In this document: in pieces, positions 549-32,450 of the stretch
How the letters are laid out: each line of letters begins with the position of its first letter
Numbering within the stretch: position 1 is the stretch's first letter
Assembly: GCA_001767195.1 (NCBI GenBank)
Contig: MEKU01000079.1
Span: forward strand, 8,084-54,720
Direction of reading: 5' to 3'
From: Acidobacteria bacterium RIFCSPLOWO2_02_FULL_67_21
Lineage (GTDB): Bacteria > Acidobacteriota > Vicinamibacteria > Vicinamibacterales > UBA2999
Length of the DNA stretch: 46,637 nt
Position numbers and translations under genes: made by a program
Notes under the pieces: generated by a model
Told to the model about the DNA's origin: nothing
The model's input: only the letters and a program-made list of their open reading frames with translations
Databases searched by the model: none

Positions 549-640
549 GCAATGCTCAATGCCGAATGCTCAATGCCCAATGCCCAACCGGAGTGCTCTT
601 TGATCATTGGGCCTCAAGCATTGTGCATTGGGCATTCTTG
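549..640. repeat. Inverted arms of 7-bp tandem units (AATGCYC)
   Basis: The left arm reads AATGCTC, AATGCCG, AATGCTC, AATGCCC, AATGCCC in direct tandem. The right arm carries the same units on the other strand (CATTGTGCATTGGGCATT). Transcribed RNA would form a long imperfect hairpin. It fills the gap between the HU stop codon and the HIT start codon on the minus strand. It may act as an intercistronic hairpin or terminator; no clear U-tract is visible. Confidence 0.75.
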
Positions 641-3874: not shown

Positions 3875-3945
3875 ATTGACGGATTGACGGATTGACGAAT
3901 TGAATGGGGCAATCAAATTCGTCAATTCGTCAATCCGTCAATTTA
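3873..3945. repeat. Inverted arms of 8-bp units (GATTGACG) between convergent genes
   Basis: The left arm is GAATTGACG GATTGACG GATTGACG AATTGAA. The right arm is its reverse complement (CAAATTCGTCAATTCGTC, AATCCGTCAATTTA). The structure lies between two convergent genes, the DUF6335 gene and cmk. The cmk stop TGA is part of a TGACGG unit of the right arm. The position fits a bidirectional terminator. Confidence 0.8.
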
Positions 3946-4597: not shown

Positions 4598-4686
4598 AAC
4601 CACGAAGGCCACGAAGAGATCGAAGAGCACGAAGACTCCCTTTCCTATTCGTGAGCTTCGCGATCTTCGTGAACTTCGTGGTTCAA
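4598..4686. repeat. Inverted arms of 9-bp CACGAAGNN units (family C)
   Basis: The left arm reads ACCACGAAGGCCACGAAGAG and the right arm ends GATCTTCGTGAACTTCGTGG, its approximate reverse complement. Related copies are at 5872-5962 and 28030-28117. This one fills the gap between the divergent start codons of cmk and the alpha/beta hydrolase. It therefore sits in a 5' region, where it cannot be a simple terminator. Confidence 0.8.
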
Positions 4687-5874: not shown

Positions 5875-5962
5875 ACCACGAAGATCACGAAGATCGCGAA
5901 GGGCACGAATGAGTTCTAATGTCTTCGTGGTCTTCGCCACCTTCGTGGCCTTCGTGGTTTTC
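5872..5962. repeat. Inverted arms of 9-bp CACGAAGNN units (family C)
   Basis: The left arm is AACCACGAAGATCACGAAG followed by ATCGCGAAGGGCACGAA. The right arm is GTCTTCGTGGTC, CACCTTCGTGGCC and TTCGTGG. The left edge contains the hydrolase stop TAA and the right edge ends two bases before the rluB start codon. It therefore spans the whole intergenic gap. Confidence 0.8.
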
Positions 5963-7390: not shown

Positions 7391-7466
7391 GCCACGGAGG
7401 CACAGAGACACAGAGACAAGCTACATATGGGGTCTTCTCTGTGCCTCTGTGTCTCTGTGGCTTGTA
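7391..7466. repeat. Inverted arms of 9-bp CACAGAGAC units
   Basis: The left arm is CCACGGAGGCACAGAGACAC followed by AGAGACAAG. The right arm is CTTCTCTGTGCCTCTGTG followed by TCTCTGTGGCTTG. It lies between scpA (7482-8279) and the scpB start at 7378, so it would form a hairpin in the scpA-scpB transcript. A second copy is at 9430-9502. Confidence 0.8.
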
Positions 7467-9429: not shown

Positions 9430-9502
9430 GTCACAGAGACACAGAGCCACAGAGATTCCTGAGCCAATTGTTCTCTCTGTCTCTGTGACTCTGTGGCTTC
9501 GT
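9430..9502. repeat. Inverted arms of 9-bp CACAGAGAC units
   Basis: The left arm is TCACAGAGACACAGAGCCAC followed by AGAGATTCC. The right arm is TCTCTGTCTCTGTGACTC followed by TGTGGCTTCGTG. It is the same family as 7391-7466. It lies between the convergent trpS and M50 protease genes, where it could terminate both. Confidence 0.8.
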
Positions 9503-23856: not shown

Positions 23857-23878
23857 CGCAATAGGAATGCCGTTTGCT
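23857..23878. promoter_or_regulatory. Overlapping divergent sigma54-like promoters
   Basis: On the plus strand AGGAATGCCGTTTGCT (23863-23878) has exact GG-N10-GC spacing and a perfect -12 element (9 of 12 matches), and suits the BCAM0308-type gene at 23901. On the minus strand CGGCATTCCTATTGCG (23857-23872) has the same geometry with 8 of 12 matches, facing the VIT1-type gene. The minus-strand site would start transcription beside the ribosome-binding site, so it is the weaker of the two. Confidence 0.45.
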
Positions 23879-23900
23879 GCCCTACTCATCGGGGGATCCC

Positions 23901-24419
23901 ATGCGGAGTGCGAAACCATACACGAACGCGACATTCACCAAGCGGGTTGACCATGCCGGAGGCCGCCACAGGCCGCCCAGAGCGCCCGCCGAGCCGGCGG
24001 CCTGTGTGCCTGGCTGCGGCGCGGTGTACGTGAAACGTCGGTGGAGCCAGGCCCCTTCCGCGCGGCTTCTGGCCGGCAGCGCCGGCACGCCGCTCGTCGT
24101 CCGGCTCTGCCCCGCCTGCCGGCGGCGCCGTACGGGTGTGCCGCACGGATATGTCCATGTCGAAGGGGGATTTTTCGTGACGCACCGGAGCGACCTCGAG
24201 CATCTACTCCACAACGAGGCCGCGCGCGCGCGCGAGGACAATCCTCTCGCGCAGGTCATGAGCTGGCGGCATTTCAAGGACGGCAGCCTTCTGATCGCGA
24301 CGTCGACCGAGCACCTGGCGCAGCGGCTCGGGCACGCGCTCGAGAAGGCGTACGACGGCGCCGTCCAGTACGGGTTCTCGCACGAGAACAAGATGGCGCA
24401 CGTGTGGTGGAAACGGTAA
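23901..24419 (+). CDS. BCAM0308-type zinc-ribbon protein
   Basis: 172 residues. A Cys-rich ribbon ([14 protein letters not shown] and LCPACRRRR) precedes the conserved region [38 protein letters not shown] and [20 protein letters not shown]. This matches the BCAM0308 family, named after a gene of the Burkholderia cenocepacia low-oxygen locus. It resembles NMD3-like ribosome-associated zinc ribbons, so a role in ribosome hibernation or RNA binding is possible but unproven. The first Cys pair is CxxxC instead of CxxC. The ATG follows GGGGG at a good distance. Confidence 0.75.
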
Positions 24420-24470
24420 ATGGTGCGAGGGTGCGTACGACAGTGCAAGGTGCGACGGTGCGGAGTTGCG
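24420..24470. repeat. Left arm of GGTGCGA tandem repeat
   Basis: Tandem units of 7-8 bp (GGTGCGAGGGTGCG, then AGTGCAAGGTGCGACGGTGC). The 14-mer at 24449-24462 recurs as its exact reverse complement at 24897-24910. Together the two arms bound a segment of about 500 bp holding the four-helix-bundle gene. Confidence 0.75.
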
Positions 24471-24547
24471 GGCCGCAGGTCGCCCGGACCGTCGCGCTGG
24501 CGCACCCCTGATCCCGTTCACTTCCTGACTCCGCTTCTGAGATATCG

Positions 24548-24856
24548 CTACAGCCTCGCGACGGCCCCGCACGTCCTCTGCGCGAGCGCCTCAAGGACGA
24601 CGAATTCCTCCCGGATCAGATAGCCGCGATCCACCGCGTCCTGCCGGTGGTTCTGACATTCCATGAGAGATCCGCGCGCAATGTCGAGCAGACGAGCGAA
24701 GTCGCGATGCGTCCGACGTCCGAATCCCTCGGCGATGTTGCGCGGCGCAGATGCCGCGGCGTGGCGGAGCTGATCCCAACGTACGCAGATCTTGCAAGGC
24801 GCGCCGTCCCGCCATACTGCAGATCCGTATGCAAGCGCTCCCGAATTCGCGCGCAC
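24548..24856 (-). pseudogene. Four-helix-bundle (S23/IVP-like) protein, N-terminally degraded
   Basis: The C-terminal 75 residues match the four-helix-bundle (23S rRNA intervening-sequence protein, Avd-like) family: QLRHAAASAPRNIAEGFGRR, THRDFARLLDIARGSLMECQ, and DRGYLIREEFVVLEALAQRT. The expected first helix (a K-V-W-Q-K-A type segment ending in FP) is missing, and the region upstream (ALAYGSAVWRDGAPCKICV) only faintly resembles it. A GTG at 24856 gives 102 residues, but the start is a guess. The family is of unknown function and often multicopy. The gene sits between inverted GGTGCGA arms. Confidence 0.6.
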
Positions 24857-24892
24857 GGCGCGCTCGTTCCTATCGTGGCGCGTTCGGTCACC

Positions 24893-24925
24893 CCGGCGCA
24901 CCGTCGCACCGCCGCACCGGCTCTC
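24893..24925. repeat. Right arm of GGTGCGA tandem repeat
   Basis: CGGCGCACCGTCGCACCGCC GCACCGG is the reverse complement of the left arm at 24420-24470, with a shared exact 14-mer. It ends shortly before the P-type ATPase remnant. Confidence 0.7.
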
Positions 24926-24942
24926 GTGTAATCCATCACCGG

Positions 24943-25735
24943 ATGCAGGCGGGTCGCTGGCACGGACAGGCGGCGGAGGCCGTCCTGGCCGCGCTCGAAT
25001 CACGCGCTTCGGGTCTCTCCGACGACGAAGCGCGGCAGCGTCTCGCGCGGTACGGCCCCAACCGCCTGCCGGCCGCACCGCGCACGCCGGCTCTGAAGAT
25101 CCTCCTCGACCAGTTCCGCAGCATCGTCGTGCTGCTGCTCGTCGCCGCCACGGTGGTGTCGTTGCTCCTCGGAGATCTCATCGAGGCGTCGGCCATTGCC
25201 GCGGTGCTCGCGATCAACGCCGCGCTCGGCTTCACGACGGAGTTTCGCGCGCGCCGCGCGATGGACGCGATCCTGCGCCTCGATGCGCCACGCGCGGCGG
25301 TGATCCGCGGCGGGGCGCTGCGCGTCATCGACGCCCGCGATCTCGTCCCTGGCGACATCCTCGAGCTCAGGGCCGGGCACCAGGTGCCGGCGGATGCGCG
25401 GCTCATCGAGTCAACCGATCTGCACACGAACGAGGCCGCGCTCACCGGCGAGTCGCCCGACAGCGGCGGGCCCGCCGGCCGGGCCGCACGCCTTTGCCGT
25501 GGATCCCGTCGATCGCGCCGTCAACGAGGCGGCGCAGCGGTTCGGCACCGATGTGGCCAAGGAGGCGGCGGCCGTCGTGCTCTCAGCGGGGCTGCAGATC
25601 GCCACGATGTACGTGGAGCCGCTGCCGCAGCTGCTGCGCGTCACACCCCTTGGCACTGGCGAATGGATGATGGTGGCGGCGTGTGCCGCAGTGCCGGCGA
25701 TCGTCGGCCAGTTATTGAAGCTGCGGGCTTCGTAA
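24943..25735 (+). pseudogene. P-type cation ATPase remnant (internal deletions)
   Basis: The N-terminal part is a good cation P-type ATPase: LSDDEARQRLARYGPNRLPA, two helices (SIVVLLLVAATVVSLLLGDL, AIAAVLAINAALGFTTEF), the actuator domain DLVPGDILELRAGHQVPADA and NEAALTGESP. The reading frame then changes. A second frame holds FGTDVAKEAAAVVL, which matches the hinge motif that follows the P-domain, joined directly to the last helices (EPLPQLLRVTPLGTGEW, ACAAVPAIVGQLLKL). The catalytic DKTGT segment, the N-domain and most transmembrane helices are absent: about 0.8 kb remains of about 2.6 kb. It cannot be a working pump. Confidence 0.8.
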
Positions 25736-31921: not shown

Positions 31922-32021
31922 AAGCGGTTTCAGAACCGACGTAGTACCCGGCTTTAGCCGGGCTGAAGCCCGGCACTACGTACGTACCCCCAAGTCGGTT
32001 ATGAACCGGTTCTCGCTAGGC
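31915..32021. repeat. 107-bp inverted-repeat element with REP core
   Basis: The outer ends are GCCTAGAAGCGGTTTC and, inverted, GAACCGGTTCTCGCTAGGC. Inside is a REP-like core (GTAGTACCCGGCTTTAGCCG, GGCTGAAGCCCGGCACTACG). The structure looks like a MITE. The left GCCTAG supplies the DUF302 stop codon. A related, partial element is at 32384-32450. Confidence 0.7.
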
Positions 32022-32031
32022 ATTGTTCCGT

Positions 32032-32370
32032 TCATTCGGCCTCGTGAAAGTCGCCCGTGTCGTAGCGCGTGCCGTGCGACGCCACCGCCTGCCACCGGCC
32101 GTCGCGCTTCTGCCACACGTTGGTGTAGTGATAGTGGCCGCTCGTGTCGGACCCGTCGTAGCGGCTCCGCTCCTGCTGGCTGGTGAACGCGACCGCCATG
32201 TCGCCGTAGTCGTTCACCGAGACCTCGTCCAGGTCCATCATGTCGGCGACGAACTTCGCATCCAGAAGCGGCGTCGGCGTCGCCGCCGCGCCATGGACGA
32301 ACACCTGCATACCGCTGCCGACAATCGTGACGGCTTCGTCTGCCGTCACTGCGCGGCTCAGGATGTCCAC
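32032..32370 (-). pseudogene. SnoaL/DUF4440-like protein, N-terminally truncated
   Basis: The 112 visible residues resemble the NTF2-like SnoaL/DUF4440 fold: LLDAKFVADMMDLDEVSVND, YGDMAVAFTSQQERSRYDGS, and HYHYTNVWQKRDGRWQAVAS. The start is a GTG (MDILSRAVTADEAV), but the conserved first helix of the family is missing. The frame runs back toward the REP-like element that begins at 32384. The gene sits exactly between two repeat elements. It may be a truncated gene or a shortened functional protein. Confidence 0.55.
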
Positions 32371-32383
32371 GTGCCGCAGTCCA

Positions 32384-32450
32384 GTACGTAGTGCCGGGCT
32401 TCAGCCCGGCTAAAGCCTTGCACTACATCTGTTGGGAAACCGCCTCTAGG
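32384..32450. repeat. Partial inverted-repeat element with REP core
   Basis: A REP-like core (TACGTAGTGCCGGGCTTCAG, CCCGGCTAAAGCCTTGCAC) is followed by the element end AAACCGCCTCTAGGCA. The end is the reverse complement of the TGCCTAGA-GCGGTTTC end seen at 31915. Its CTA (TAG on the minus strand) is the stop codon of the adaptor gene. Confidence 0.7.

Follow-up and report, generated by a model that had tools for sequence, protein, structure and literature searches.

Described systems and the locus in the window

For the four-helix bundle of S23 proteins we know of no catalysis and no catalytic site. RAYT (TnpA-REP) is a Y1 HUH transposase, and the REPIN layout combines its gene with dispersed hairpins; Avd, the accessory protein of DGRs, forms a pentamer and acts together with a reverse transcriptase and with template and variable repeats. 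Cyanobacterial STRRs are comparable heptameric repeats.

S23 and Avd are homologous and share the four-helix-bundle fold, according to the accessible part of PMC10053308. The accessible sections of PMC4990558 describe the intervening sequence (IVS) of Coxiella 23S rRNA as an S23 ORF within inverted arms, cut by RNase III, with tandem heptamers (GACAGAT) beside the ORF that vary in copy number among strains; Leptospira is named there as having a 23S rRNA IVS with an S23/IVP ORF. IVP ORFs in insertions of both 16S and 23S rRNA are reported in the available text of PMC11270868. A literature search that left most subscription papers and all preprints outside its reach found no prior report of an association of S23 genes with repeat arrays.

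The window, i.e. the whole stretch of 46637 nt analyzed here (positions 8084-54720 of contig C79 of genome G000, the window's genome), carries such an S23-array element at 24420..24925, its right edge being uncertain by ~15 bp as placed by comparison with contig C246 of a related genome, G036. The element consists of a left arm (24420..24463, + strand) with GGTGCG(A) units at 24422, 24430, 24449 and 24457, the remnant of an S23/IVP four-helix-bundle gene (24572..24775, − strand, in a frame open at 24548-25078), and a right arm (24893..24918, − strand) with inverted CGCACC units spaced 8 bp, at 24897, 24905 and 24913. The likeness to the 23S rRNA IVS is in the S23 ORF placed inside stem-forming inverted arms, those of the window copy being short. 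However, an IVS resides inside rRNA genes, whereas S23-array elements reside between protein genes, often several per genome (the window copy is between two protein-coding ORFs and not inside an rRNA gene); also, each element has its own unit arrays, which are found alone elsewhere as well. With the REP/REPIN-RAYT systems the elements share a gene flanked by its own repeats and dispersed inverted hairpins of the same sequence; inverted copies of this kind, matching the flanking repeats of the gene, are present in relatives. The S23 repeats, though, are tandem arrays of 7-14 bp units, whereas REPs are single palindromes, and no Y1 hit was obtained for the window S23 gene, a member of PF05635. 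The arms can also be seen as terminal inverted repeats, as in a MITE or an insertion sequence.

The preliminary description of this locus pointed to an exact inverted 14-mer and tandem units around an S23-like gene, and all of these are indeed present. The 14-mer alone (GGTGCGACGGTGCG at 24449-24462 and CGCACCGTCGCACC at 24897-24910) means little, since chance alone yields 1.35 inverted 14-mers per window at distances of up to 700 bp (order-2 Markov model, 60 simulations); it was rejected as evidence in its own right. Simulated windows contained on average 0.017 cases of a 6-mer recurring in tandem at 8 bp and also present in inverted form within 700 bp. The real window has four such places, 24420-24925 included; this tandem-and-inverted pattern is not at chance level. 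The gene scored 61.7 bits against PF05635 (cut-off 33.8), matching profile positions 33-100 of 106, and 58 bits against TIGR02436 (cut-off 24). It does not encode a full-length domain with four helices, while its relative L068 spans PF05635 positions 1-98; seven S23 proteins used as tblastn queries gave no sign of helix 1 beside the gene in any frame. The window S23 gene is real but decayed, a remnant. Taken alone, the window copy stayed below the alignment control (score 28, the 95% control limit being 35), and a special RNA fold was rejected, as 76 of 100 shuffles folded equally well. Support for this copy comes from its relatives and from the empty site in G036.

At that site the upstream ORF (23874-24419) ends in a stop codon at 24417..24419 (+ strand), directly after which the element begins; the right flank (24940..25735, + strand) contains pieces of a P-type ATPase, N-terminal (PF00690, PF00122) and C-terminal (PF00689). 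In G036 (contig C246, locus L350) the same upstream gene and P-type ATPase gene are ~26 bp apart, the matching points being 562 bp apart in the window, and the ATPase gene is shortened in G036 too. As judged by this sequence comparison, the G036 contig represents the empty site and the window element an insertion. In G034 and G027 the upstream gene is kept, different sequence follows it and the element is absent. The preliminary description is to be amended in these points: the gene is a remnant, the 14-mer is not significant by itself, and the insert directly follows a stop codon and is next to a P-type ATPase gene that is shortened in the relative as well.

Association of S23 genes with inverted arrays

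Matches to PF05635 were found in 31 of the 43 genomes of the window's family (174 in all, no more than 17 per genome) and, in a phylum sample of 247 genomes, in 118. Besides the window, 108 of the 174 family matches entered the analysis, and the flanks sufficed for 106. Selection of the 108 was by score, with a low-scoring set added, and was made mostly before inspection of the flanks (the first 30 came with the search). The phylum set was made of the best match from each of 30 genomes, 29 of which were used (L152 was at a contig edge). From named genomes of many phyla we took the best 80 of at least 589 matched stretches, of which 75 were entered and 73 could be scored; all 80 carry the SIPSNIAE motif, so the named set represents one subfamily.

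With exact 7-mers and at least three units required on both sides, 45 of 105 scorable loci (window included) had inverted arrays and 4 had direct ones; the corresponding numbers for 1854 control positions were 27 and 28. By local alignment, calibrated at 972 control positions, inverted arms above the 99% control limit were seen at 85 of the 106 family loci; in direct orientation 7 of the 106 exceeded their own 99% limit and 8 the inverted limit. The phylum loci, judged by the family controls, passed in 19 of 29 cases inverted and in none direct. In the named set (435 control positions; loci from the best 80 of at least 589 matches) 54 of 73 loci passed inverted, while in direct orientation 4 of 73 exceeded their own 99% limit, set high (82) by a few strong direct repeats, and 11 exceeded the inverted limit. 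Arms were G-rich on the left at 74 of 85 family loci and at 53 of 54 named loci, and of the 41 counted in the named set 36 had a period of 7 or 14, the commonest there (both named counts are again from the best 80 of at least 589 matches); periods 8 to 10 were also common in the window's family (19 of 51).

When the left arm of one locus was aligned with the right arm of another, 21 of 526 same-genome pairs and 86 of 2844 sampled other-genome pairs passed; arm pairing is locus-specific. In 718 kb round 40 S23 loci, i.e. in regions centred on S23 genes, there were 28 inverted array pairs, of which 20 enclose S23. The eight non-S23 pairs and two further places gave no significant S23 profile hit (best E 0.25); most of these pairs were two separate arrays with long ORFs of ordinary genes between them. 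The association of S23 genes with inverted arrays, far from being confined to the window locus, is strong beyond the window's genome.

Similar flanks had also been anticipated at the other four-helix-bundle genes of the window's own genome, which has three PF05635 hits, the window copy included. This holds for L003, clearly an inverted-arm case (GGTTCAG arms, inverted score 54.5 vs direct 24.5), and only partly for L001, where the layout is mixed: the two nearest of its GGGGCAA-type arrays form a direct pair (score 41, vs 30 inverted), ~550 bp further out there is an arm in inverted orientation, and the S23 copy carries an internal stop. A LysE-like gene suspected by eye between the L001 arrays was dropped, having no Pfam hit in the frame tested. 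The arm units differ among all three loci; GGTGCGA was not found at the other two, so sharing of units among the S23 loci of this genome was rejected and the association is one of architecture, not of sequence.

Probable joint transfer, empty sites and dispersed arrays

That the gene and the tandem-inverted repeat travel together, as proposed in the preliminary description, is supported by homology of paralogues from arm to arm, by empty sites and by covariation of unit and protein. The paralogues L102 and L105 of G007 are 82.5% identical from array to array, and their flanks otherwise share only further arrays; with dN 0.03 and dS 0.65 (dN/dS ~0.05) their S23 genes have been under strong purifying selection after the duplication. 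L111 and L112, from two genera, are alike in the gene and the arrays only. Among relatives of the window S23, L068 (G034) and L360 (G024) have GGTGCGA arms too, and in a third one, from G021, only one side carries units. Identity of S23 proteins was correlated with similarity of arms measured by 5-mers (Mantel r 0.426; 85 loci, 2850 cross-genus pairs), while within-genome permutation gave a mean of 0.056 and a maximum of 0.186 in 1000. Such covariation could arise from recognition or from common descent; in either case the parts travel together.

At L068 (9080-10611) the arms are nested, with outer GGTGCGA and inner CGGTGTCTCGGTGG units (by eye), and enclose a PemK/MazF-like gene (PF02452, 60.8 bits) along with S23.

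The L033 element of G008, whose RNA is predicted to fold into a very stable stem (z −9.9, 20 shuffles), is not present between the corresponding two genes of G002, G003, G005, G007 and G009; G001 and G006 have a different gene at this site. The L071 element is missing from G001, G003, G006 and G007; G009 has it, with a shortened S23. The filled and empty junctions of the L033, L071 and window sites, read by eye, are strongly diverged and have no readable target duplication. At the L033 site in G003 (L187), G007 (L191) and G001 (L190) we observed other hairpin repeats (GTCCGGCTTCAGCCGGAC; GGGGCAAACCTTCAGGTTTGCCC) filling the gap, with no S23 element.

Units of S23 arms were dispersed in the genomes. 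Three consecutive copies of GCCAGTA were matched 100 times in G008 (overlapping matches, those in its own S23 arms counted) and no more than once in each of the 42 others. The GGTGCGA pattern had 429 matches in 14 of 43 genomes and none in the remaining 29, and the reversed-pattern control for such counts gave 0 in all genomes. Where an S23 gene with GGTGCGA units was seen there were 224 (G034), 34 (G024), 28 (G020), 23 (G026, one side, contig end), 13 (G035) and 3 (G027) matches; where no S23 with such units was shown, there were 52 (G021), 15 (G017), 15 (G036), 8 (G022), 6 (G031), 5 (G019) and 2 (G018). The window's own genome had a single match, and only the window's own S23 has such units there. 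Arrays of a locus's own unit more than 2 kb from S23 numbered 63 in 558 kb from 18 genomes, vs a permuted mean of 19.9 (maximum 48 of 2000). Some dispersed copies, in G008, are hairpins with similar loops. Array density was 10 in 330 kb for genomes without S23 vs 31 in 313 kb for S23-rich ones, a contrast that gives weak support, as 8 of those 10 arrays came from one genome.

The window itself contains six array-only hairpins, with CAATGC units of 7 bp period (550..640), TTGACGGA units (3875..3943), CACGAAG units (4601..4682 and 5877..5958) and CACAGAG units (7396..7458 and 9432..9495). As to the hairpin at 3875..3943, TTGACGG is the unit of the S23 locus L048 and was seen at L049 too; CACGAAG was seen, among the S23 loci examined in the family, at L105 only and on one side, and CACAGAG arms at none of them. 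Other layouts were observed as well. In the window, inverted REP-like repeats (GCCGGGCTGAAGCCCGGCACTACGTA) at 31957-32410 surround a small DUF4440/SnoaL-like ORF (32032-32370, − strand), and in contig C15 of G008 (L201, 1620-2240) GGTGCC arrays and inner REP-like GTCCGGCTTTAGCCGGAC repeats surround a small non-S23 ORF.

Heptameric repeats of Xanthomonas and Nostoc were described in 2015 (PMC4692102); the accessible text of that paper gives no origin for them, characterizes them as ‘generally’ not associated with mobile elements, counts 70 and 75 convergent inverted pairs in two Xanthomonas genomes, and contains no mention of 23S or ‘four helix’ that we could find. In Xanthomonas codiaei, GGGATTC/GGGAATC arms surround an S23 gene that separates accC (biotin carboxylase) from accB (biotin carrier), and a second S23 gene, with GGGGACC arms, lies between carA and carB. 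GGGAGTA arms occur in Nostoc. By eye, Luteimonas has an S23 with GGGAATC arms at an apparent accB/accC site and Pseudoxanthomonas one with GGGGACC arms at an apparent carA/carB site. Matches to GGGAATCGGGAATC numbered 42 in X. codiaei, 140 in Luteimonas and 19 in Pseudoxanthomonas, with 0 for the control. GGGAATC, common to the S23 arms of X. codiaei and Luteimonas, is the heptamer published for Xanthomonas in PMC4692102, where the convergent inverted pairs are described as well.

Among 32 matching records, six cyanobacterial plasmid loci were inspected; every one has arms of this type, and two of the six are near-identical regions of one strain. On plasmid pANA02 of Anabaena sp. 90 (L356) an S23 element separates cas6 from cas4 within a type I-D cas gene cluster; on plasmid pNe_5 of Nostoc edaphicum (L355) one is situated between the genes of the beta and alpha subunits of ribonucleotide reductase. 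The latter site, together with the carA/carB and accB/accC sites, suggests a liking for gaps between genes of the same pathway. In the accessible part of PMC10910872 a 23S rRNA IVP appears in a figure on CRISPR-associated genes, and one could guess that this listing came from S23 elements in such arrays; TAACTGA repeats are treated in PMC4679880, where the accessible text does not mention S23.

A candidate mobile cassette and its alternatives

The best reading of these data is that array, S23 gene and inverted array form a transposase-free mobile cassette with a REPIN-like layout, related to the rRNA intervening sequence. Judging from the genome comparisons, the cassette has inserted between genes and has been copied within a genome, its protein has been kept under selection, and its units have been dispersed. 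The window segment is probably a decayed copy of this widespread tiny cassette, in which S23 would recognize its own units and a host enzyme would do the copying. The cassette, ~0.5-0.8 kb long, would be composed of a left tandem array (with 7 bp as the ground state of the period), one S23/IVP gene and the array inverted. S23 may recognize its units in folded RNA or single-stranded DNA, a role as proposed for RAYT proteins with REPINs, and the host enzyme may then place copies of the hairpin elsewhere: the full cassette in cis, an array-only hairpin in trans. In a transcript the arms would form a long stem, a possible substrate of RNase III like that of the 23S rRNA intervening sequence, so that insertion inside operons would be cheap for the host. 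The arrays may lengthen and shorten by slippage, the two arms being kept alike.

Several observations count against the cassette model. The loci whose inverted arms did not pass were 21 of 106 in the family, 10 of 29 in the phylum sample and 19 of 73 in the named set (the last from the best 80 of at least 589 matches). At L001, in the window's own genome, the nearest arrays are direct. G031 has six GGTGCGA matches and no PF05635 hit; the GGTGCGA arrays of G017 and G036 were not linked to a cognate S23, and the nearest S23 relative in G021 is one-sided. G010, which lacks S23, has eight arrays in 66 kb. Pseudoxanthomonas has 19 GGGAATC matches, though none of its three S23 loci clearly has this unit, and the units of the window hairpins are unlike those of the genome's three S23 loci.

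One could suppose that the arrays are moved by an unrelated enzyme, for instance an HUH/Y1 transposase of RAYT or IS200 type, with S23 as linked cargo. The existence of array-only hairpins without S23, the other small ORF found between GGTGCC arrays in G008, and the lack of a catalytic site known to us in S23 all fit such a passenger role; still, we consider it unlikely given the strong purifying selection on S23 after duplication, and given that in the 40 regions, centred as they are on S23, most inverted array pairs enclose the gene. Even less probable is that the arms serve merely as an RNase III stem or as a protein site in S23 mRNA, with S23 binding its own stem and the whole being rarely mobile. 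The cleavage of the Coxiella IVS arms round an S23 ORF, as given in the accessible part of PMC4990558, would agree with such processing or autoregulation, as would the stable stem of L033 and the insertions between genes of one pathway, but the empty sites, the paralogues at unrelated sites and the dispersal of units require mobility in addition.

S23 might instead act like Avd, with the stem-loop RNA, once excised, serving as template for a reverse transcriptase of the host. This would fit the homology of the two proteins (in the accessible part of PMC10053308), and weak hits to the Avd equivalog NF033474 (cut-off 80) were obtained for L145 (31) and L033 (20.5), both below the cut-off, and none for the window protein, L071 or L125. 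A match to RVT_1 (PF00078) is present in 11 of the 31 S23-bearing family genomes vs 2 of the 12 without S23, and the window's genome has two such hits, on contig C99 and not on C79. However, RVT_1 is absent from 20 of the 31 S23-bearing genomes, the S23-rich G001, G004, G005, G006, G008, G020, G039 and G040 among them, which, for reverse transcriptases of PF00078, disfavours a role as general partner; we regard this route as very improbable. As to GC-rich DNA yielding inverted repeats by any gene, the chance-level 14-mer and the failure of the window copy alone in the alignment control are what such an origin predicts; it is contradicted, for the class, by the controls on direct orientation, position, mismatched pairs and Markov sequences and, for the window copy, by the empty site in G036, and we regard it as hardly credible. 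Membership in a defence system was rejected: of four proteins given to PADLOC, three had no match and L145 had a weak one, to Cas11e (E 0.0058). Carriage by phages was rejected too, as phage records contained no tblastn match to L145 at E 1e-5.

Beyond the mobile cassette of the window, we would put forward a wider scheme tentatively. S23/IVP proteins might be non-enzymatic specificity factors of a separate class of mobile elements, with an own unit for each S23 type; array-only derivatives might be a main source of STRRs in cyanobacteria, xanthomonads, the window's phylum and many other bacteria, and the rRNA intervening sequence might be one such element that landed in rRNA.

Two old questions, the function of S23/IVP and the origin of bacterial heptameric repeats, are joined here, and the association makes both testable: S23 gains a candidate ligand, its own unit, and the repeats gain a candidate parent gene. 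The loci provide a natural set of protein-repeat pairs whose specificity might be readable from sequence covariation, and the rRNA intervening sequence would be placed within a larger class of cassettes. The pairing of gene and repeat, seen in many bacteria, may explain the S23 family and some of the scattered short repeats of bacterial genomes.
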